Source: Olleya sp. Bg11-27 (GTDB lineage Bacteria > Bacteroidota > Bacteroidia > Flavobacteriales > Flavobacteriaceae). Taken from it: a stretch of 64,000 nt of DNA. A model generated the notes under the pieces. It was not told the DNA's origin. It saw only the letters and a list, made by a program, of their open reading frames with translations, and searched no databases. This document shows positions 20,418 through 28,763 of the stretch, piece by piece. The DNA lies in the NCBI RefSeq assembly GCF_002831645.1, contig NZ_CP025117.1:1123514-1187513 (forward strand). Direction: 5' to 3'. Position numbers and translations under genes: made by a program. Each line of letters starts with the position of its first letter. Positions within the stretch are counted from its first letter, which is position 1.

Positions 20418-23400
20418 CTATTCCAAAATTGGATTTAAGGCATTTAGGGCCTTTTTTACTGTTTTAATGTTGTCAAAGGTAAGTAATAAACGTAAGCCAT
20501 TTCTAGTCTGTTTTTCTTTCATTTTACAAGCCTGAGGGTGGGACTGCACGTATTTTAAAAGCTTGGTAAAATTAGGGCTTTGGTAAAAACTACTTTGTTG
20601 GTCATTTATAAAGTAACTAATAAGCTTACCTTGCTTCATTATTACTTTTTCCATACCTAATTTAGTTGCAATCCATTTAATGCGTACACTATTAATTAAG
20701 TCTATAACTTGGATTGGTAATTCTCCAAAACGGTCTAAAAGTTGTGTTTCAAATACTGCTAATTCAGCTTCAGTTTTGAAGTTGTTTAATTGTGTATAAA
20801 GGTTTAAACGCTCAGCAATATTATTAACATAATCGTCAGGGAATAACAGCTCAAAATCGGTGTCTATTGTAATATCTTTAACGTATTCTTTGTTTTCTAA
20901 AGGTTCGTTATAAAGGTCTTTAAATTCGTTTTCTTTAAGCTCTTCAATCGCTTCGTTTAATATTTTTTGGTAAGTATCAAAACCGATTTCGTTAATAAAT
21001 CCGCTTTGCTCACCTCCTAATAAATCTCCAGCACCACGGATTTCTAAATCTTTCATGGCAATATTAAATCCACTACCTAGTTCTGTAAATTGTTCTAAAG
21101 CTTGGATACGTTTTCTAGCATCGTCGGTCATTGCCGAGTATTCTGGTGTTATAAAATAACAGAATGCTTTTTTGTTACTTCGTCCAACACGTCCACGCAT
21201 TTGGTGTAAGTCACTTAATCCAAAATTATTAGCGTTATTGATAAAAATAGTATTGGCATTTGGGACGTCTAATCCACTTTCTATAATGGTAGTACTGACT
21301 AAAACATCAAAATCACCATCCATAAAGCCTAGCATTAAGCTTTCTAGTTTTTTACCTTCTAATTGCCCATGTCCAATACCGATTTTTGCATCTGGTACTA
21401 AACGTTGTATCATACCAGCAACTTCTTTAATATTTTCTATACGATTATGAATAAAAAAGATCTGGCCACCACGTTCTATTTCATAACTTACAGCATCCCT
21501 AATAGCTTCTTCTGTAAATCGGATAACATTGCTTTCTATAGGATAACGATTTGGTGGAGGCGTGGTTATCACCGATAAATCTCTAGCCGCCATTAAGCTA
21601 AACTGTAATGTTCTTGGTATTGGTGTAGCCGTAAGCGTTAAAACGTCTACATTATCTTTTAAGGTTTTTAGCTTTTCTTTAACGGCAACTCCAAATTTTT
21701 GCTCTTCGTCGACAATTAGTAATCCTAAGTCTTTAAATTTTACATTTTTACTTGCTAGTTGATGCGTACCTATGATGATATCGACATGTCCTTTTTCTAG
21801 CTTTTCTAAGGTTTCTTTTTTCTGTTTAGCTGTTCTAAAACGGTTGACATAATCTACAGTTACAGGAAAGTCTTTTAAACGTTCTGAAAAAGTTTTATGA
21901 TGTTGAAACGCTAATATGGTTGTCGGTACTAAAATGGCAACCTGCTTTCCATTGTCAACAGCTTTAAATGCGGCACGTATCGCAACTTCTGTTTTTCCAA
22001 AACCAACATCGCCACAAATTAAGCGATCCATTGGACGCTCGCTTTCCATATCGACTTTTATGTCTGCTGTCGCGGTAATTTGGTCGGGAGTATCTTCATA
22101 AATAAAAGAAGCCTCTAATTCGTGTTGTAAATAGCTGTCCTGTTTATATTGATATCCTTTCTCTAGTTTACGTTTAGCATATAGTTTAATTAAGTTGAAT
22201 GCAACGTGCTTAACTCTAGATTTTGTTTTTTCTTTAAGAGCTTTCCAAGCTTTACTACCTAGTTTATAAACTTTTGGTGGTTTACCATCCTTACCATTAA
22301 ATTTAGTTATTTTATGAAGAGAGTGTATGCTTAAATATAAGACGTCGCGCTCTCCGTAAACCAATTTTATAGCTTCTTGTTTTTTACCTTCGACATCTAT
22401 TTTTTGAAGTCCACCAAATTTTCCAATTCCATGATCTATATGTGTTACATAGTCTCCAATATCAAGATTAGTTAAGTCTTTTAAGGTGATGGCTTGCTTT
22501 TTAGCGTAACCATTTTTTACATGAAATTTATGATAGCGTTCAAAAATTTGGTGATCTGTATAAACGACTAATTTATTGTCATGATCTACAAACCCTTGGT
22601 ATAATGACAATGTTATTGTTTGGTAATGTACATCTTGTTCGACATCGTCAAAAATATCATGAAAACGTTTTGCTTGCTGCTCGCTAACACAAGCAATATA
22701 ATTGGTGTAATCGTTATTGTGATTACTGTTTAAATTGTCTATTAGTAAATTAAACTGCTTGTTAAAAGCAGGTTGAGGCGAGGTGTTGTGTTGTATGGTT
22801 TCGGTAGTGTTAAAAACGGTATCTGTACCAAACTCTACTAAGGTAAAGTCTAACAGTTGTTTTTTAAGTTCGGCAGCATTACAGAATAACTCTGATGGTT
22901 TTGCGTGTTTTATGTCTGGGTTGAGGTTTACAAAAGCAGCAATTGCTTTATCAAAAAAGTCATCAATCCTATCAAAAGTTAAATCGAAGTTTTTACCAAA
23001 AACGACAGTTTTTTGTGCAATATATTTTAAAAAGCTTTGCCTGGACTCGTCCATTAGCTTATTAGCAACGTTGGGAATAACGCTAATTTTTTTTATCTGT
23101 TCTGTTGATAATTGTGTTTCGACATCAAACGTTCTAATACTGTCTACTTCGTCTCCAAAAAACTCGATACGATAGGGTTCGTCATGTGAGAAAGAAAACA
23201 CATCTACAATTCCACCACGTACAGAAAACTCTCCTGGTTCTGTAACAAAATCAACACGTTTAAATTTGTATTCAAACAGAATTTCGTTAACAAAATCGAT
23301 AGATAAACTATCGTTCACTGTAATTTTCAGGGTATTGCGTTCTAGTTCTTTTCTGGTGACTACTTTTTCAAATAATGCATCCGGATAAGTAACTATTATT

Positions 23401-23756
23401 GCTGGTTTTTTACGTGAGTTAATACGGTTTAAGACCTCAGAACGTAATAATACATTTGCATTATCAGTTTCTTCTATTTGATAAGGTCTACGATAACTCC
23501 CTGGATAAAAGAGGACATCTGTTTTATTTACTAGTTGCTCTAAATCGTTGAGGTAAAAGGCAGCTTCTTCTTTATCATTAAAAATAAGTAAAAAAGGAAG
23601 GTCGCTATTTTTAAACGTTTGTGTTATAGCGTACGATAGGGAGGAGCCTACTAAACCTTTTAAGTGCGTCTTACTTTGGGTTTGGGCTATAGCAGTATGA
23701 AGTTTTTGCAATTGCAAAGACTTTAAATAGGTCTGCGAGATTACGGTTTTACTCAC
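20418..23756 (-). CDS. mfd: Transcription-repair coupling factor Mfd
   Basis: The 1112-residue protein has the full Mfd plan: an N-terminal UvrB-like module (~1-320), the RNA-polymerase interaction domain (~435-510, LDIGDYVTHIDHGIGKFGGL), superfamily 2 helicase lobes (Walker A ICGDVGFGKTEVA, DEEQ box LLIVDEEQKFG, and LTLTATPIPRTL), the RecG-like MRGRVGRS motif, and the C-terminal TRCF domain (~960-1060). It removes RNA polymerase stalled at DNA lesions and recruits UvrA. Length and motif set are complete. Confidence 0.97.
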   Translation of the reverse strand: MSKTVISQTYLKSLQLQKLHTAIAQTQSKTHLKGLVGSSLSYAITQTFKNSDLPFLLIFNDKEEAAFYLNDLEQLVNKTDVLFYPGSYRRPYQIEETDNANVLLRSEVLNRINSRKKPAIIVTYPDALFEKVVTRKELERNTLKITVNDSLSIDFVNEILFEYKFKRVDFVTEPGEFSVRGGIVDVFSFSHDEPYRIEFFGDEVDSIRTFDVETQLSTEQIKKISVIPNVANKLMDESRQSFLKYIAQKTVVFGKNFDLTFDRIDDFFDKAIAAFVNLNPDIKHAKPSELFCNAAELKKQLLDFTLVEFGTDTVFNTTETIQHNTSPQPAFNKQFNLLIDNLNSNHNNDYTNYIACVSEQQAKRFHDIFDDVEQDVHYQTITLSLYQGFVDHDNKLVVYTDHQIFERYHKFHVKNGYAKKQAITLKDLTNLDIGDYVTHIDHGIGKFGGLQKIDVEGKKQEAIKLVYGERDVLYLSIHSLHKITKFNGKDGKPPKVYKLGSKAWKALKEKTKSRVKHVAFNLIKLYAKRKLEKGYQYKQDSYLQHELEASFIYEDTPDQITATADIKVDMESERPMDRLICGDVGFGKTEVAIRAAFKAVDNGKQVAILVPTTILAFQHHKTFSERLKDFPVTVDYVNRFRTAKQKKETLEKLEKGHVDIIIGTHQLASKNVKFKDLGLLIVDEEQKFGVAVKEKLKTLKDNVDVLTLTATPIPRTLQFSLMAARDLSVITTPPPNRYPIESNVIRFTEEAIRDAVSYEIERGGQIFFIHNRIENIKEVAGMIQRLVPDAKIGIGHGQLEGKKLESLMLGFMDGDFDVLVSTTIIESGLDVPNANTIFINNANNFGLSDLHQMRGRVGRSNKKAFCYFITPEYSAMTDDARKRIQALEQFTELGSGFNIAMKDLEIRGAGDLLGGEQSGFINEIGFDTYQKILNEAIEELKENEFKDLYNEPLENKEYVKDITIDTDFELLFPDDYVNNIAERLNLYTQLNNFKTEAELAVFETQLLDRFGELPIQVIDLINSVRIKWIATKLGMEKVIMKQGKLISYFINDQQSSFYQSPNFTKLLKYVQSHPQACKMKEKQTRNGLRLLLTFDNIKTVKKALNALNPILE

Positions 23757-23772
23757 TTAACTTTAATTTATG

Positions 23773-23780
23773 CAAATATA
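23773..23780 (-). promoter_or_regulatory. Candidate -7 promoter box for mfd
   Basis: On the minus strand TATATTTG matches TAnnTTTG exactly, 16 bases before the mfd ATG. No -33 TTG at the expected distance is seen. Confidence 0.5.
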
Positions 23781-23868
23781 AGCAATGCATAAAATATTAG
23801 CTTTTAGATTTACAAAATTTAACTTTTTAGTAGTATTATATAGCAGATGCGTTAAGGATGGAGTGGTT

Positions 23869-23936
23869 TGTTTGAGCTCCTCGCAGAGAGCGAGCCACGA
23901 GAGCCTGTTATTTAACACCTATTAAAAGGGGTTAAG
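23869..23936. other. GC-rich imperfect palindrome between mfd and the TerB-like gene
   Basis: In an AT-rich surrounding, the segment reads GAGCTCCTCGCAGAGAGCGA then GCCACGAGAGCC. CTCGC and GCGAG form a short stem around AGAGA, with CTC/GAG pairing possible outside it. A second imperfect inverted repeat, TTAACACC ... GGGGTTAA, follows. It may be a decayed dispersed repeat. Confidence 0.35.
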
Positions 23937-23986
23937 TAAGCGCCCAAAAAAATAAACTTTTAATTTTAAAAGGTGTGGGGTTTAAC

Positions 23987-23994
23987 TATATTTG
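23987..23994 (+). promoter_or_regulatory. -7 promoter box of the TerB-like gene; decides its start
   Basis: TATATTTG is a perfect TAnnTTTG. A possible upstream TTG start codon at 23992 lies inside this box, so it cannot be the translation start; the ATG at 24019 fits. Confidence 0.7.
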
Positions 23995-24018
23995 CAGTAT
24001 AAAATTAAACAAAAAAGT

Positions 24019-24450
24019 ATGTCATTTTCAGATTTATTCGATAGTGGATTTAAAAAGCGTAATGAAGATCATTTTGCTGCAATAGTACGTGTAGCCATGA
24101 GTGATGGTGTGATTAGTGAGGCTGAGAAAGCATTTTTAGATCGTTTAGCACGTAATTTAGATATTAGTGAAGAGGAGTATAAGCAGATATTGGTTGATTA
24201 TAAAGAACACCCAATTAATCCGCCAACATCTTACGATCAACGTTTAGAACGTTTATACGATTTATCAAGAATGGTATGGGCTGATCATATTGAAGGTCCT
24301 AAGCAGACGGCTATTTTAGAGCGTTTGTGTGTTGGTTTAGGGTTTAAATCTAGTAATGCACAATATGTAACGCATAAAGCTTTAGAGCTGGTGCATGAAG
24401 GTGTTGATTTGGATACGTTTACTGATGAAATTAAAACAATGAACAGATAA
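24019..24450 (+). CDS. TerB-like (tellurite-resistance TerB fold) protein
   Basis: The ATG at 24019 gives 143 residues; a nine-codon extension from a TTG is ruled out by the promoter box. The all-helical TerB fold is indicated by FAAIVRVAMSDGVISEAEKAFLDRLARNLDIS, with the acidic positions DG.(I)S..E typical of the family, and a second half ending in TFTDEIKTM. TerB domains act as small acidic, metal-binding or scaffolding modules at membranes; most have nothing to do with tellurite. The gene stands alone, ended by a strong terminator. Confidence 0.82.
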   Translation: MSFSDLFDSGFKKRNEDHFAAIVRVAMSDGVISEAEKAFLDRLARNLDISEEEYKQILVDYKEHPINPPTSYDQRLERLYDLSRMVWADHIEGPKQTAILERLCVGLGFKSSNAQYVTHKALELVHEGVDLDTFTDEIKTMNR

Positions 24451-24468: not shown

Positions 24469-24502
24469 AAAAAAAAGCGAACTTAATAGTTCGCTTTTTT
24501 TT
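24469..24502. terminator. Bidirectional rho-independent terminator
   Basis: AAAAAAGCGAAC and GTTCGCTTTTTT form a perfect stem around TTAATA, flanked by A and T runs. It lies between the convergent TerB-like and hybrid-kinase genes and overlaps the last bases of the kinase stop codon. Confidence 0.9.
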
Positions 24503-26024
24503 ATTTTAAGTATTCTTCAATTTTTGTTATTAGTGTCTCCTCGTCAAATGGCTTTTTTATGACGTCATTTATTCCTGCTTTTTTATACCGTTTTAAATCG
24601 TCTTTAAACACCCTAGCGGTTAATGCTATTACAGGTACTTTTTTATGTTCACGCTCTGGCATTTGTCTGATCAGTTTGGTGATCTCGTCACCATAACTAT
24701 TAGGAAGTTTAATGTCCATTAGGACTAAATCAAACTCTGAATTTTCTATTCTAGGAATCACATCTTCTCCGCGTGTTACAATGTCTAAAAAGTAATTACC
24801 TCTAGACGCTAATATTTTTAAAATAGAGAGTTGAGTAATTTCAGAATCTTCAACTAATAGGATGCTGTACTTTTTATCAGATTTTGGTTTAGTTATCTTG
24901 CTTTTCTTTTTAGTTTCTAATTTGTAGTTATGATCTAACTTGAAATTAATATTGGTAGAAAAGGCACTACCTTCTCCTAAAGTTGAGTCTACATTAATAA
25001 CACTATGTGTTAAACTAACTAAGTGTTTTGCAATAGCTAACCCTAGCCCAGCCCCTTTATTATAAGATTGACTTGTGTTAAGTTGTGTAAAGCTGGTAAA
25101 AATATCGTCTTGATTATCTTTATCCATACCTATTCCAGTATCAATAATCTGAAAATGGATGTTGGCTTTTTGTGCTCTTATTTGGTTTAATGAGACGTTA
25201 AACGTTACTGTTCCTACTTCTGTGAATTTAATAGCATTTTCTAAAAGATTACTAAGGACTTGTCTTAATCTTAACGTGTCACCACCAATTACTGCTGGTA
25301 GGTTGTCATTAAAATTAGTTATTAGTTCAATGCCTTTTTGTTCGGCTTTGATTTTAAAAAGGTGTTCTATGTCTTGTAATAATTCTCTTAAATCAAAAGG
25401 TTCAATGACAAGTTCTAACTTTCCCGCTTCAATTTTAGAGATGTCTAATATATCCTCAATTAATTGCTTTAGATAACTTGAAGACGAGTCAATTACTTTT
25501 AAATAATTAAGTTGTTCTTCGTTTAAATTAGTCTTTTTTAAGATGTCCGAAAAGGTTAAAACACCAGTTAAAGGATCTCTTAATTCGTGACTAAAGTTTG
25601 CAATAAAAGCATTTTTAAACACTTCTTTTTCTTGAAGGTATTCGTTTTTCAATTCTAGAATTTGCGAATTTATTACAGATTCGTTTCTTACTTGAGCAGT
25701 CGTTTGGTAATTATCGTAATGTACTGTTAGGTCTAAAATAACTACTAGAGCTGGTTTTTTGCCATCAAATGTTTTTACAATAATATCTGTAATTATTGTT
25801 TCGTTTTTTTGATTGGTCAAATGTATACAAGAGAAAACGTGTTTTTGATTTTCTTCCTGAAGCGCAACATGTATGCTTTCAAAAAAGGGGTGAATGTTTG
25901 ATATGTTTTCACCAACTATATTAGTAAAAATAATATCGTCAGATTCTTTTACAGTTCCATCTAAATCAATAACAATGTACTGATTTACAGATTGGCAATG
26001 TTCTTTTTTGTAGTGCTCTAGCAT
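24501..26024 (-). CDS. Cytoplasmic hybrid histidine kinase with a receiver domain
   Basis: This 507-residue protein has no membrane helix. Residues ~1-110 look like a PAS-type sensor domain (YIVIDLDGTVKESDD ... GENISNIHPFF). A coiled-coil linker leads to HisKA with the phosphoacceptor in NFSHELRDPLTG (His146), then an HATPase domain (NLLENAIKFTEVG, DTGIGM, GAGLGLAIAKHLV), and a C-terminal receiver (~388-507; LLVEDSEITQLS, LVLMDIKLP with the phosphorylated Asp, and ALTARVFKDD). It is the last gene of a four-gene leftward run, 10 bp after the small GTPase gene, so it may be its signalling output or input. No HPt domain or DNA-binding partner is adjacent. Confidence 0.92.
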   Translation of the reverse strand: MLEHYKKEHCQSVNQYIVIDLDGTVKESDDIIFTNIVGENISNIHPFFESIHVALQEENQKHVFSCIHLTNQKNETIITDIIVKTFDGKKPALVVILDLTVHYDNYQTTAQVRNESVINSQILELKNEYLQEKEVFKNAFIANFSHELRDPLTGVLTFSDILKKTNLNEEQLNYLKVIDSSSSYLKQLIEDILDISKIEAGKLELVIEPFDLRELLQDIEHLFKIKAEQKGIELITNFNDNLPAVIGGDTLRLRQVLSNLLENAIKFTEVGTVTFNVSLNQIRAQKANIHFQIIDTGIGMDKDNQDDIFTSFTQLNTSQSYNKGAGLGLAIAKHLVSLTHSVINVDSTLGEGSAFSTNINFKLDHNYKLETKKKSKITKPKSDKKYSILLVEDSEITQLSILKILASRGNYFLDIVTRGEDVIPRIENSEFDLVLMDIKLPNSYGDEITKLIRQMPEREHKKVPVIALTARVFKDDLKRYKKAGINDVIKKPFDEETLITKIEEYLK

Positions 26025-26034
26025 TTGTTTTGGC

Positions 26035-26535
26035 TTATTTGGTTACGGCTTCCGCTAATTTAGTAAAAACATCCTCAACATTTTTACCTGACTTTGCACT
26101 TGTGTAAAAATCGACAAAACGTCCAAAAACATCTTTGTTTTGCTTAATAAATTCGTTTGTGACTAAATCTTTTTTGTTACCAATAACTTTTATTGGTGTT
26201 TTTGGGTAGCGGTCTTTAATATAATCTAAGTCAGATTCTAGTTGCTGGTAGGTTGCTGGTCTAGTCATGTCAAACACATATAAAAAACCATTTGTACCAA
26301 GTAGGTAAGACGGTCTTGTATTTGATATGTCATCGTTTCCTTCTAAATCCCAAATGACTAGTGTAATGTCGTCATTAGTTTTAGGTAGTGTAATTTCTTT
26401 TTTTAAGACATGTACACCAATGGTTACTTTATAATCTTCACTAAAAGTGTCTTGTACAAATCGTCTTATTAAAGAAGATTTTCCTACACCAAAGTGACCA
26501 ATTAGAACTATTTTTTTAGATATTTTCATTTTCAA
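26035..26535 (-). CDS. Ras/Rab-like small GTPase
   Basis: A 166-residue single-domain GTPase with all G motifs: G1 GHFGVGKS (13-20), a switch I Thr in VTIG (Thr38), G3 WDLEGN (62-67), G4 NKKD (120-123) and G5 TSAK (145-148). Bacterial Ras-superfamily GTPases of the MglA/Rup kind act as GTP-controlled switches for polarity, motility or signalling. At the position of Ras Gln61 it has Asn (DLEGN for DTAGQ), so intrinsic GTP hydrolysis may be weak and a GAP may be needed. It overlaps the upstream longin/roadblock-like gene by 20 bp. A second ATG at residue 3 is possible. Confidence 0.9.
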   Translation of the reverse strand: MKMKISKKIVLIGHFGVGKSSLIRRFVQDTFSEDYKVTIGVHVLKKEITLPKTNDDITLVIWDLEGNDDISNTRPSYLLGTNGFLYVFDMTRPATYQQLESDLDYIKDRYPKTPIKVIGNKKDLVTNEFIKQNKDVFGRFVDFYTSAKSGKNVEDVFTKLAEAVTK

Positions 26536-27334
26536 AGTAATCTTTTAGTTTAGTGCTGAAAACCTCACTATTATTTAAATCTGTTTTGTTTATTACATTT
26601 TGGGCAAAATCTAAGAGCTTATCTTCAAGTTTGCTTCTAAATGTTGCGGTAAATGCACCTGATATTGCTACTGCAATATAATAATTTGAAAAATTTTGTA
26701 GATGTATATGGTAATTTTCATATTCGATATACTCCAGATTTTGGGCTTCTGTAGTAAATGCATCTTCTGCAAAACTTTTTATAGCAGTTAGCATTCCTGC
26801 CACTGTATCTTGATCTATAGTATTTGTTTTGGAGTACTCTGAGACAACTAAACCTGAGCCACTCTCAATGACCATGATTTGCTCTATTTTAGATTTAAAT
26901 TGATCTTGGATTAATAAATCCCCTTCTGAGACCCCTGATCTTTTAGATCTAAATTTTCTTTTAAAATTTTTAAAAGAAAAGGTGTTGTTTACACTGTTGT
27001 TAATGTTTTCAGAGAGTACTTGTATTTCTTTTTGGACGTAGCGTTTTATTAACTTTCCAATAATCGGGAATAAGGCTTCAACAATGGCATCCTGAGAGTT
27101 TTTAATTTCCGATTTTAATGTTTCGGTAATTGTTGGTCCTAAGGTTTTAGGCATGTCTTTAATAAATGTTTCTAGTTTTTTGTCTAGAATAGGATCTATA
27201 TGTTCCGATAAATTATTTTGCTTAGTGATTAGATCTTCAAGCACCTTAATTTTTTCTTCTAATGATGTCACATACTCGTGCTCATCTTTAAGTAAGATGT
27301 CTCTAAGGCTTTTTAATTTATCGTCTTGATTCAT
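26516..27334 (-). CDS. Coiled-coil plus longin/roadblock-like protein, probable partner of the GTPase
   Basis: A 272-residue soluble protein. Residues ~1-45 are a charged coiled coil; ~55-130 form amphipathic helices; a basic stretch KRKFRSKRSG (~126-135) follows. The C-terminal part (~148-250) has an alternating strand-helix pattern: QIMVIESGSGLVVSEYS, a helix TVAGMLTAIKSFAEDAF, strands LEYIEYENYHIHLQNF and YYIAVAISGAF, and a closing helix. This resembles roadblock/longin domains, which in bacteria act as GTPase regulators (MglB type). I recall close relatives in other flavobacteria, some mis-annotated as OmpA-like. Overlap with the GTPase gene supports a complex; direct regulation is inferred. 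Confidence 0.72.
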   Translation of the reverse strand: MNQDDKLKSLRDILLKDEHEYVTSLEEKIKVLEDLITKQNNLSEHIDPILDKKLETFIKDMPKTLGPTITETLKSEIKNSQDAIVEALFPIIGKLIKRYVQKEIQVLSENINNSVNNTFSFKNFKRKFRSKRSGVSEGDLLIQDQFKSKIEQIMVIESGSGLVVSEYSKTNTIDQDTVAGMLTAIKSFAEDAFTTEAQNLEYIEYENYHIHLQNFSNYYIAVAISGAFTATFRSKLEDKLLDFAQNVINKTDLNNSEVFSTKLKDYFENENI

Positions 27335-27349
27335 TTGTAAATCAAGGTT

Positions 27350-27706
27350 TTACTGACTTATTTTTTCGCCTAATTTTGTAAAGAGTTCGCCTAATAATTT
27401 TCGGTCTACTTTTTTCTCGTTTAATGCATCTGCTTTGTCTTCAAAGCTATTTTCAAGCTCAGTAATTCTAATATTGATATCCGTACTTAGGTTATCAATA
27501 TTTTGAAGTATTTCGGACTTTACGTCATCCATCAGTGCTTCTAATTCTTGCTTTTTGGTAAGAATATCTTGTTTTAGTGTTTCAAACTCGCTATCATAAG
27601 CTTGCATGTTTTCACCAAAAATAAGCTGTTTTATGGCGTCTATCTTTGACGTCGCGTCCGTAGATGATTGCACAGTTTGGTCCTTTATTTTGTCTGTATT
27701 TGCCAT
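27350..27706 (-). CDS. Coiled-coil protein of unknown function, first gene of the GTPase operon
   Basis: A 118-residue, highly charged, entirely helical protein without signal peptide or membrane helix. Heptad patterns run through almost all of it (EFETLKQDILTKKQELEALM, ILQNIDNLSTDINIRI), and it ends ELFTKLGEKISQ. It lies 15 bp before the longin/roadblock-like gene and 50 bp after fbp. No named family is recognised. Given its place, a scaffold or adaptor for the GTPase complex is a reasonable but untested guess. Confidence 0.65.
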   Translation of the reverse strand: MANTDKIKDQTVQSSTDATSKIDAIKQLIFGENMQAYDSEFETLKQDILTKKQELEALMDDVKSEILQNIDNLSTDINIRITELENSFEDKADALNEKKVDRKLLGELFTKLGEKISQ

Positions 27707-27755
27707 TAGGATAGTTTATATGTCAAAAGTAGCAAAAAAATAGACACTATGGTAT

Positions 27756-28763
27756 TTAATCAGTGTTTTGCATGAATTCTTCTGCTTTTAAGACCATGTT
27801 TTTACTTCCACAGAAAAAAGGTACTCTTTGATGCAGTTCAGAAGGTTGGATATCCATAATGCGTTTAAATCCATCACTTGCTCTTCCATTGGCTTGTTCT
27901 GCAAGATAGGCCATAGGATTACATTCGTAAAGCAAACGTAATTTCCCGTCTTGATTTTTTGAGCTTTTAGGGTACATGTAAATACCACCTTTAATCATAT
28001 TTCGATGAAAATCTGAAACTAGAGAGCCGATGTATCTTGAGGTATAAGGTCTATCTTCTTCCTCCATTTGGCAGTATTTTATGTAGTTTTTTACGCCTTG
28101 AGGAAAATGTGTGTAATTACCTTCGTTTACAGAATAAATATTTCCGTCTGCAGGAAACTTCATATCTGGATGTGATAAGTAAAAGGTCCCTATAGCAGGG
28201 TTTAAAGTAAAGCCATTAACACCATGACCTGTAGTGTAAACCAGCATGGTCGAAGTCCCGTACACAACATAACCAGCAGCTACTTGTTGGTTGCCAGGTT
28301 GTAAAAAGTCCTCAATAGTAACAGGTGTCCCTACTGGAGTAACACGTCTATAAATAGAAAAAATAGTACCAACAGAAACGTTAACATCAATATTTGAAGA
28401 CCCATCTAAAGGATCTATTAAAACAATATATTTGTTTTGATTGTTGTCATCTTGGCTATTAATGGTGATAAAATCATCTTCTTCTTCACTAGCAATACCA
28501 CAAACGATGTTACGATTAGTAAGCGTTTGAATAAATTTATCGTTAGCGTAAACATCTAATTTTTGTTGGTCTTCACCTTGGATGTTTGTATCTCCTGCTG
28601 CGCCAATAATATCAACTAATCCCGCTTTGTTAACTTCATGGTTTACAACCTTGGCAGCTAGACGGATAGAGTTTATTAAACGAGATAGTTCTCCAGAAGT
28701 AAATTTGAAAGACGCTTGGTTTTCAATAATAAATTCTCCTAAAGTTTGATTTTTCTTGGACAT
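27756..28763 (-). CDS. fbp: Fructose-1,6-bisphosphatase, class I
   Basis: The 335-residue enzyme hydrolyses fructose 1,6-bisphosphate in gluconeogenesis. Metal-binding motifs are present: ASEEEDD (Glu cluster) and [15 protein letters not shown], the class I signature; GGIYMYPKS and [19 protein letters not shown] carry substrate-binding residues. Length is normal. The GTPase operon begins 50 bp downstream in the same direction with no terminator visible, so read-through is possible. A near-consensus -7 box, GATATTTG, lies about 25 bp before the start. Confidence 0.96.

Follow-up and report, generated by a model that had tools for sequence, protein, structure and literature searches.

A Group 1 Rup-like operon in Olleya sp. 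Bg11-27 encodes a Rab/Ras-like GTPase, a predicted roadblock/longin-fold protein and a hybrid histidine kinase

The gene neighbourhoods of Group 1 Rup GTPases were described in 2014: besides the GTPase they encode a coiled-coil protein, a conserved domain with no assigned function, often together with OmpA, and an output module, and the set includes a histidine-kinase version (Wuichet & Søgaard-Andersen 2014, PMC4316618). According to the Rup sections of that paper, no member had then been experimentally characterised (PMC4316618), and no later study of a Rup system appeared among the matches listed from open-licence PMC papers. A studied analogue is the actinobacterial conservon, an operon encoding a histidine kinase, a roadblock protein, a protein of unknown function and a small Ras-like GTPase (PMC13343842, PMC4316618). 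For the MglA/MglB pair of Myxococcus, mglA is reported not to lie near the genes of its response-regulator partners (PMC4316618).

Reading of the open reading frames in the window, a 64,000-nucleotide stretch of the genome of the marine bacterium Olleya sp. Bg11-27, outlined a minus-strand operon coding for a predicted coiled-coil protein (CC), a protein here designated MID, a Ras-type GTPase and a hybrid histidine kinase (Table 1). The four leftward frames named in the original prediction were all recovered where it had placed them. CC and MID are separated by 15 nt, MID and the GTPase gene overlap by 14 nt, and 10 nt separate the GTPase and kinase genes. The existence of this overlap had been predicted and stands, but the end proposed for it, 26535, presumes initiation at a TTG codon; since the ATG at 26529 is matched in each of the other six aligned rows, the overlap likely spans 26516-26529. 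Gene spacing and a strong terminator behind the kinase gene make it likely that the four genes form one transcription unit, as had been proposed. The terminator hairpin was absent from the list produced by a pattern scan, probably because its stem absorbs the T run. Upstream of CC, the motif TAnTTTTG was present in all eight aligned same-genus sequences (of 10) and was not seen in four rows from other genera; it resembles TAnnTTTG, which we take to be the Bacteroidota -7 consensus, and no -33 element was found there by eye.

Table 1. Features of the operon, with positions in the window
Feature	Position	Strand	Basis
Intrinsic terminator hairpin, overlapping the kinase stop codon	24468..24503	-	RNA fold -18.1 kcal/mol, z -8.0
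Cytoplasmic hybrid histidine kinase, 507 aa	24501..26024	-	Pfam HisKA, HATPase_c, Response_reg
Receiver Asp437, phosphate-acceptor position (present in the window)	24714..24716	-	Alignment
Acceptor His146	25587..25589	-	HisKA; 120/121 kinases
Gln111	25692..25694	-	In the long helix 100-163 behind the PAS-like domain, some 11 residues from its start (AlphaFold2)
PAS-like domain, kinase residues 14-98	25731..25985	-	AlphaFold2 topology: two strands, helices, three strands
Ras/Rab-like small GTPase of Rup type, 164 aa	26035..26529	-	Pfam Ras 7e-33
G3 motif DLEGND, GTPase residues 61-66	26332..26349	-	Alignment
MID, 272 aa: helical N-terminal half and C-terminal roadblock/longin-fold domain	26516..27334	-	ORF, AlphaFold2, Foldseek, hhalign
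MID roadblock/longin-fold domain, residues 137-268	26531..26926	-	AlphaFold2, Foldseek PDB, hhalign
CC, predicted coiled-coil protein, 118 aa	27350..27706	-	ORF; sequence-based judgement and the 2014 paper
TACTTTTG, weak candidate Bacteroidota -7 element upstream of CC	27724..27731	-	Alignment

The gene set is conserved well beyond this genome. In the best 80 loci from a scan of 362 relatives' genome contigs, CC was found upstream of MID in every case (78 by pattern, 2 by reading), and the GTPase together with a frame of at least 250 codons lay downstream of MID in 79, the exception (L071) having neither the GTPase nor a kinase-size frame. A second set of 58 loci from a family search, which shares some genomes with the first, presented all four genes in 55 cases and CC and MID only, with no GTPase or kinase, in the remaining three (tblastn). 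A recognisable set was also observed in Mesorhizobium sp. WSM1497 (L163), where a hypothetical protein with the CC signatures, an OmpA family protein, a 'Rab family GTPase' and a cyclase are encoded in the same order. In one genus, three loci of the OmpA type (L121, L123 and L127) gave no GTPase by pattern within the 16 kb examined. In viral contigs, neither MID nor the GTPase had a confirmed relative.

A search of the Olleya genome turned up no single-domain small GTPase besides that of the operon, the five other matches lying in frames of 302-943 aa. In the PDB the operon's GTPase matches Rab-family proteins best (E 6e-21), it is 39% identical to the Mesorhizobium 'Rab family GTPase', and in a phylogenetic tree it stands apart from six MglA-like sequences (SH-aLRT 99), which read YGTPGQ or YTVPGQ in the G3 region where the Olleya protein reads WDLEG. 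Motifs G1 to G5 are all present, as had been claimed, but the catalytic Gln expected after the G3 DxxG is replaced by Asn. Across 121 loci, window included, this position is not Gln in 107 and is Gln in 14. The C-terminus (...LAEAVTK) contains no Cys.

MID matched no family above the curated cut-off in Pfam or NCBIfam, including Robl_LC7 (PF03259); a Robl_LC7 search of its own genome matched another gene and did not call MID, and PDB sequence searches with the protein or its profile returned nothing relevant. The evidence for its fold is structural and profile-based. The AlphaFold2 model of the whole protein is weak (mean pLDDT 60.9, pTM 0.43, with the N-terminal half at about 44-58), and 10-residue blocks of the C-terminal domain average 55-80; in that domain the predicted order is helix-strand-strand-helix-strand-strand-strand-helix, with more helices following. 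A Foldseek search of the PDB with this model gave 55 matches at E<=0.001. Judging from their titles, the 50 that were listed all belong to the longin/roadblock class (AP sigma/mu, Ykt6, Sec22b, MP1/p14, Rag, Mon1-Ccz1) or are complexes that contain such proteins. In hhalign comparisons with the Robl_LC7 profile, an OmpA-free MID profile reached a probability of 82-84% and a mixed profile 53% with the window sequence first or 30-56% with an OmpA-type row first, and none of 100 column-shuffled controls scored above 17.9, against 29.5 for the mixed profile. A profile of OmpA-type proteins only gave 3.5-18%, with scores of 19.6-24.7 that scarcely exceed those of a GTPase control profile (up to 21.9). 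The original prediction of a roadblock/longin-like C-terminal domain is thus supported, at moderate model confidence, and we consider the fold highly probable for MID. From the model topology, the Foldseek matches and the profile match, the unassigned Rup domain is probably a divergent roadblock/longin fold, an identification that is new here. By alignment, MID is homologous to the N-terminal half of the OmpA-type proteins, and through L125 to that of the L163 protein. The OmpA domain was present in L163 and in the four OmpA-type relatives scanned, one of which (L128) scored 27.0 against a cut-off of 27.2; MID itself has no OmpA domain by Pfam and no transmembrane helix (maximum Kyte-Doolittle 0.94).

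CC likewise matched no Pfam or NCBIfam family above the curated cut-off and contains no hydrophobic segment on the Kyte-Doolittle scale. It carries the signatures KIxxIKxLIFGEN near its N-terminus and KxDRKxLGxLxxxLGEKI at its C-terminus, both recognisable in relatives as far as the Mesorhizobium locus. An 18-column hhalign match to the N-terminal half of MID (score 21.1; maximum 17.6 in 60 shuffles) is suggestive only of a likeness between the two sequences.

The kinase was analysed in 121 rows (117 below 98% identity), with 13 incomplete sequences, mostly copies, left out; 11 of the 58 family loci fall outside this set, since the pattern missed a part of them, and eight of these 11 have all four genes by tblastn. 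The cytoplasmic hybrid architecture with an acceptor His146 and a receiver, as originally described, is borne out by its Pfam domains, by the conservation of the acceptor and by the absence of any 19-residue segment above 1.3 on the Kyte-Doolittle scale. Seven kinase-core positions are kept in all 79 aligned rows. In the AlphaFold2 model (mean pLDDT 82.8) the N-terminal region adopts a PAS-like topology, with no Pfam PAS match, and Gln111 in the helix behind it is invariant (121/121). This residue was also kept in eight of eight distant outputs of other types, under three alignment settings, so that it is shared by hybrid kinases, sigma-54 activators, two-component kinases and a nucleotide cyclase. 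As judged from these alignments, its invariance across output types is a new observation.

Asp437 is missing from 27 of the 120 relatives, which fall into three separate clades, while the kinase core is kept, so the output cannot in every case be a phosphorylated receiver. This loss, read from the aligned sequences, is new here, and the Rup sections of the 2014 paper make no mention of receiver decay (PMC4316618). An association with Gln at the G3 position was considered and rejected: in the first sample the Asp was lost in 14/14 Gln loci, 2/2 Leu loci and 0/62 Asn, His or Thr loci, but as loci were added, losses turned up next to Asn, Thr, His and Lys as well, and the association is therefore mostly shared descent.

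The locus had been put forward as an undescribed system, a claim that does not hold, given that its gene set matches the Group 1 Rup of 2014 and that the conservon is a studied analogue (PMC4316618, PMC13343842). With the Rup systems of the 2014 paper the locus shares a Rab/Ras-like GTPase, a coiled-coil protein, a conserved-domain protein and a possible histidine-kinase output; a single-domain GTPase of 150-240 aa, outside the MglA clade, whose G1-G5 are canonical and keep the G3 Asp; a G3 with no catalytic Gln, a rule that fails in 14 of the 121 loci; and a Gln in the N-terminal part of the output that never varies, which may be the Gln of the 2014 description (PMC4316618). Unlike the usual form, MID has neither a transmembrane helix nor an OmpA domain. 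We assign the operon to Group 1 Rup because its anatomy matches, whereas the interactions of its proteins and the way in which a signal would run are inferred; very probably it represents a fully cytoplasmic form with no membrane or OmpA part.

Other systems resemble it less. Conservons, which belong to Actinomycetota, differ in having an MglA-family GTPase, an MglB-type roadblock protein and a CvnC of another family, and their CvnA kinase has transmembrane helices and an LPxR motif, with no response regulator (PMC13343842, PMC4316618). Conservon membership was rejected: the kinase has no hydrophobic segment and, on reading of its sequence, no LPxR, and none of the four proteins has a Pfam match to the CvnC family. 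That family we take to be DUF742. MglA/MglB likewise combines a small GTPase with a roadblock-fold partner and links to response regulators, but MglA has Thr in place of the G3 Asp that is kept here. MglB, for its part, belongs to the small Robl_LC7 proteins. Membership was rejected since the GTPase falls outside the MglA family in the tree and MID has no PF03259 match. Eukaryotic Mon1-Ccz1, TRAPP and Ragulator also pair a Rab-like GTPase sequence with a longin/roadblock-fold partner, a similarity at the level of fold; unlike the present locus, these platforms serve membrane traffic and nutrient sensing with no histidine kinase. Eukaryotic Rab proteins, moreover, carry a C-terminal Cys for prenylation, which the Olleya GTPase lacks.

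The data are compatible with a model, which we regard as likely overall, in which a roadblock platform sets the state of the GTPase and the GTPase acts on the kinase. CC and MID would form the platform, and the MID roadblock domain, to judge from its fold and linkage, would bind the GTPase and control its nucleotide state, a role modelled on that of MglB towards MglA and of longin/roadblock dimers towards Rab and Rag. In one of its states the GTPase would engage the PAS-like domain and Gln111 helix and set kinase activity; this step is proposed because the invariant Gln111 is common to unrelated outputs. His146 would then hand on its phosphate, either to Asp437 or to a second protein; the underlying His/Asp chemistry is established for these families. 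For signalling in the direction from GTPase to kinase, the chances appear about even. By analogy, the sensor kinase might instead be the input and the GTPase/roadblock platform an output that positions or switches other machinery, a view put forward by Wuichet & Søgaard-Andersen for conservons, systems with no response regulator (PMC4316618). The loss of Asp437 in three clades with a persisting kinase core fits this order of events, but the fourth gene of distant loci codes for a sigma-54 activator, a cyclase or a kinase, plainly outputs, a sigma-54 response regulator adjoins it in L122, L124 and L126, and the eight aligned distant outputs have the Gln helix near their N-terminus; we therefore regard the reverse direction as unlikely.

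Gln111 could also have a catalytic meaning. Under a 2014 hypothesis a Gln supplied in trans activates the GTPase (PMC4316618), and the fourth protein would then be a GTPase-activating protein completing the active site, with the roadblock domain acting as a scaffold only. The invariance of Gln111 in kinases and distant outputs and the scarcity of Gln at G3 speak for this arrangement, which nevertheless seems improbable: the 14 relatives with Gln at G3 still keep Gln111, the residue is placed by AlphaFold2 in a helix and not in a loop, and the other near-invariant Gln, Gln15, is mostly Ala, Glu or another residue in the eight distant outputs. Lastly, since hybrid kinases are common, an ordinary two-component gene could have come by chance to lie beside an unrelated GTPase operon, and three family loci do carry MID and CC with neither GTPase nor kinase. 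Synteny comes close to refuting this idea, with a kinase-size frame or the kinase itself beside the GTPase at nearly all loci of the two sets, as the original prediction required, and an N-terminal module common to the aligned output types.

A broader reading, somewhat less likely than not, takes Group 1 Rup systems as a whole for bacterial modules of a Rab, a hidden longin/roadblock platform and an effector. The unknown Rup domain would be the roadblock/longin companion of the closest bacterial relatives of Rab and Ras, and the pairing of a Rab-type GTPase with a longin-fold partner would then exist in bacterial operons, beyond archaea and eukaryotes. The four proteins all look soluble, which would make the OmpA-free form convenient for purification, and with a roadblock/longin partner and an effector contact through the Gln helix, the regulation of Rab-like bacterial GTPases would become testable. 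On the broader reading, the Gln helix behind a PAS-like domain would serve as a universal switch through which the GTPase acts on its effectors, be they kinases, sigma-54 activators, cyclases or c-di-GMP enzymes.

The four genes of interest lie on the reverse strand of the single 4.31 Mb contig that makes up the Olleya sp. Bg11-27 genome. They encode a predicted coiled-coil protein (CC), a 272-aa protein (MID), a small GTPase and a hybrid histidine kinase. CC and MID are separated by 15 nt, MID and GTPase overlap by 14 nt, and GTPase and kinase are 10 nt apart; a hairpin with a T run follows directly 3' of the kinase gene (RNA folding, -18.1 kcal/mol, z -8.0). The gap between CC and the upstream fructose-1,6-bisphosphatase gene presents a TAnTTTTG motif in all eight aligned same-genus sequences (of 10) and in none of four sequences from other genera; given this distribution, a promoter of the operon's own upstream of CC is only a possible, unproved candidate.

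Features of the four-gene locus (window positions)
Feature	Position	Strand	Length	Remark
CC	27350-27706	-	118 aa	ORF in window
MID	26516-27334	-	272 aa	ORF in window
Small GTPase	26035-26529	-	164 aa, counted from ATG	ORF in window
Hybrid kinase	24501-26024	-	507 aa	ORF in window
Fructose-1,6-bisphosphatase gene	27756-28763	same direction as operon		49 nt upstream of CC

The upstream fructose-1,6-bisphosphatase gene is also kept at loci L001-L010 and L011. By reading, the TerB-like gene of the downstream flank (window positions 20418-24450) recurs downstream at L190 and L207. A short N-terminal motif is common to CC (KIxxIKxLIFGEN) and MID (KLxxLRxILL), the match spanning 18 columns with a score just over shuffled controls, and no hydrophobic membrane segment was detected in any of the four proteins.

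The four-gene set is of a described kind, Group 1 Rup. In the available text of Wuichet & Søgaard-Andersen 2014 (PMC4316618), this group comprises a GTPase, a coiled coil, an unknown domain often associated with OmpA, and an output module, and the window presents every one of these features save the optional OmpA part. The original prediction of an undescribed system is hence not supported, because that text already reports this kind of neighbourhood. Mesorhizobium and Nostoc are among the genera it names, and four plasmid records, including Mesorhizobium and Nostoc (25% identical), were matched by an OmpA-type query. No later work on Rup systems appeared among the papers listed by searches of open-licence literature. 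The set also resembles in outline a conservon, which in the available text of PMC13343842 and PMC4316618 (section 18) joins an MglA-type GTPase and a kinase to a roadblock protein and one further protein. Identity with a conservon was ruled out: the window GTPase splits from six MglA-like sequences in a tree (SH-aLRT 99), the window kinase differs in being soluble and having a receiver, and CC has no Pfam match of the type of the conservon protein CvnC.

MID was present in 14 of 40 relatives, including all 10 same-genus genomes (the window's own counted), in 65 of 299 genomes spread across the family and in 14 of 395 spread across the phylum. Two sets of loci, overlapping in genomes, were analyzed. 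Among the best 80 of 362 relatives from a scan of genome contigs, CC preceded MID in all 80 loci (78 by pattern, 2 by reading), and in 79 of them MID was followed by a GTPase and by an ORF of 250 aa or more. The second set comprised 58 regions from 59 of 67 family-search matches (the others being six already covered and two fragments), and tblastn detected all four genes in 55 of them and CC and MID alone in three. Conservation of the kinase beside the GTPase in relatives is borne out by both sets. By reading, locus L071 contains neither a GTPase nor a kinase-size ORF, an mfd-like gene coming next, as also occurs downstream at L190. CC and MID without adjoining GTPase and kinase were seen at L071/L179 (contigs of equal length and probably one contig), L184 and L222. 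In Bizionia (L040:8934-10451, L042:8933-10453), a second ~505-aa ORF with a similar N-terminal module lies directly after the first kinase.

The GTPase maps to Ras in Pfam (7e-33), and its closest solved structures are Rab-family proteins (E 6e-21). As originally predicted, motifs G1-G5 are intact, though G3 reads DLEGND, with Asn at the position of the catalytic Gln in Ras/Rab. This position is plastic: across 121 loci it holds Asn (45), His (32), Thr (22), Gln (14), Leu, Glu or Ser (2 each), Tyr (1) or Lys (1), and the tree requires 13 or more changes. An own-genome search found no other single-domain small GTPase, yet this genome encodes a separate 106-aa Robl_LC7 protein (L115, C1:93786-94031).

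An AlphaFold2 model of MID from 56 sequences (mean pLDDT 60.9, pTM 0.43) scored 44-58 in its N-terminal half, with blocks over residues 137-268 reaching 55-80. The predicted topology of residues 137-268 is helix, two strands, helix, three strands, helix and then more C-terminal helices. Foldseek returned 55 PDB matches at E<=0.001, and the 50 listed are what we take to be longin/roadblock-class structures or complexes containing such. Matches include AP sigma and mu subunits, COPI zeta, Ykt6, Vamp7, MP1/p14, Rag complexes, Mon1-Ccz1 and Sec22b (TM 0.67 by target length). The available text of PMC10933270 gives an N-terminal helix as the mark of roadblock and an extra C-terminal helix as that of longin domains, and the model carries both. 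A Robl_LC7 profile, built with 16 of 17 ORFs drawn from 30 PF03259 loci (one wrong ORF being left out), matched an OmpA-free MID profile with 82 and 84% probability and a mixed profile with 53 and 53% (window first) or 30 and 56% (OmpA-type row first), the mixed-profile score being 29.5, whereas none of 100 column-shuffled controls scored above 17.9. Control profiles (GTPase, CC, PAS-like module) gave at most 6%, with GTPase scores up to 21.9, and the OmpA-type-only profile (3.5 and 18%, scores 19.6 and 24.7) was hardly above this GTPase control. This counts against a roadblock fold, as does the failure of the Pfam Robl_LC7 model to match MID; neither Pfam nor NCBIfam returned a family above cut-off for MID or CC. 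The modelled topology, the Foldseek matches and the profile match make the originally predicted roadblock/longin-like C-terminal domain likely; this fold, which we hold to be highly probable for MID, would be new for the unknown Rup domain.

A MID profile also located this region at 12 more phylum loci (11 genomes), where it makes up the N-terminal portion of proteins of ~590-640 aa. A hydrophobic segment at residues 298-362 was present in the 11 checked (all but L129), and Pfam found OmpA in four OmpA-type proteins scanned, L128 falling just below cut-off. By reading and pattern, a CC-like gene adjoins 11 of these 12 loci (all but L129) and a GTPase lies near nine; the exceptions are three loci of one genus (L121, L123, L127), where none was found in the 16 kb read. 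The fourth gene is a sigma-54 activator beside the GTPase in L118, L119 and L120 and a histidine kinase in L122, L124, L125 and L128; a receiver-sigma-54 response regulator occurs at L122, L124 and L126. In Mesorhizobium sp. WSM1497 (L163), a hypothetical protein bearing the CC signatures is followed in order by an OmpA family protein, a "Rab family GTPase" and an adenylate/guanylate cyclase. These sigma-54 activators and this cyclase, each beside a Rup-type GTPase, differ from the two types of output that the available 2014 text gives as typical.

Pfam identified HisKA, HATPase_c and Response_reg domains in the kinase. Its AlphaFold2 model (mean pLDDT 82.8) predicts a PAS-like topology for residues 14-98 (two strands, helices, three strands) and a helix (100-163) running from there into the kinase core. 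Conservation was assessed in 121 loci, window included, after removal of identical kinases and 13 cut ones (117 less than 98% identical). Gln111, Asn114 and Phe47 are each invariant in this set, and Gln15 is Gln in 120 (one gap). Eight distant outputs (one cyclase, four kinases and three sigma-54 activators, two of them close relatives) were aligned with 13 window-type kinases under three settings, leaving out the L126 and L129 outputs. Gln111 was Gln in 21/21 under every setting; Gln15 was replaced by Ala, Glu or other residues in most distant outputs, and Asn114 by Arg or Tyr in five. This Gln, near the base of the signalling helix, survives a complete exchange of the catalytic half, which points to it as the probable site where the other components of the system make contact.

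The acceptor His is conserved in 120/121 kinases; L172 has Asp in its place and retains the receiver Asp, and may encode a pseudokinase. The phosphate-accepting receiver Asp is absent in 27 of the 120 kinases with a readable receiver (14 Ser, 8 Lys, 4 Ala, 1 Thr; L053-L062, L064-L067, L069, L078, L130, L178, L195, L197, L198, L201-L204, L208 and L213), so phosphate acceptance is not a constant property of the receiver. On a quick FastTree tree of MID and kinase without receiver, which has some long branches, this loss represents three changes in three clades, all forced by well-supported branches; the nearest row to the window is Olleya namhaensis (L068).

The gene set, its conservation and its domain types are established here, as GTP-switch chemistry and His-Asp phosphotransfer are for these protein families. 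Binding of small GTPases by roadblock/longin domains is also established, according to the available text of PMC10933270. CC and MID would form a platform, with the roadblock domain of MID binding the GTPase and steering its nucleotide state, and the GTPase would act on the PAS/Gln-helix and hence on the kinase. Signalling may run in reverse, from kinase to GTPase, but the fourth gene at distant loci can be a transcription activator or a cyclase, and for this reason the direction from GTPase to output is favoured. Extension of the roadblock/longin fold from MID to all Rup systems would be plausible.
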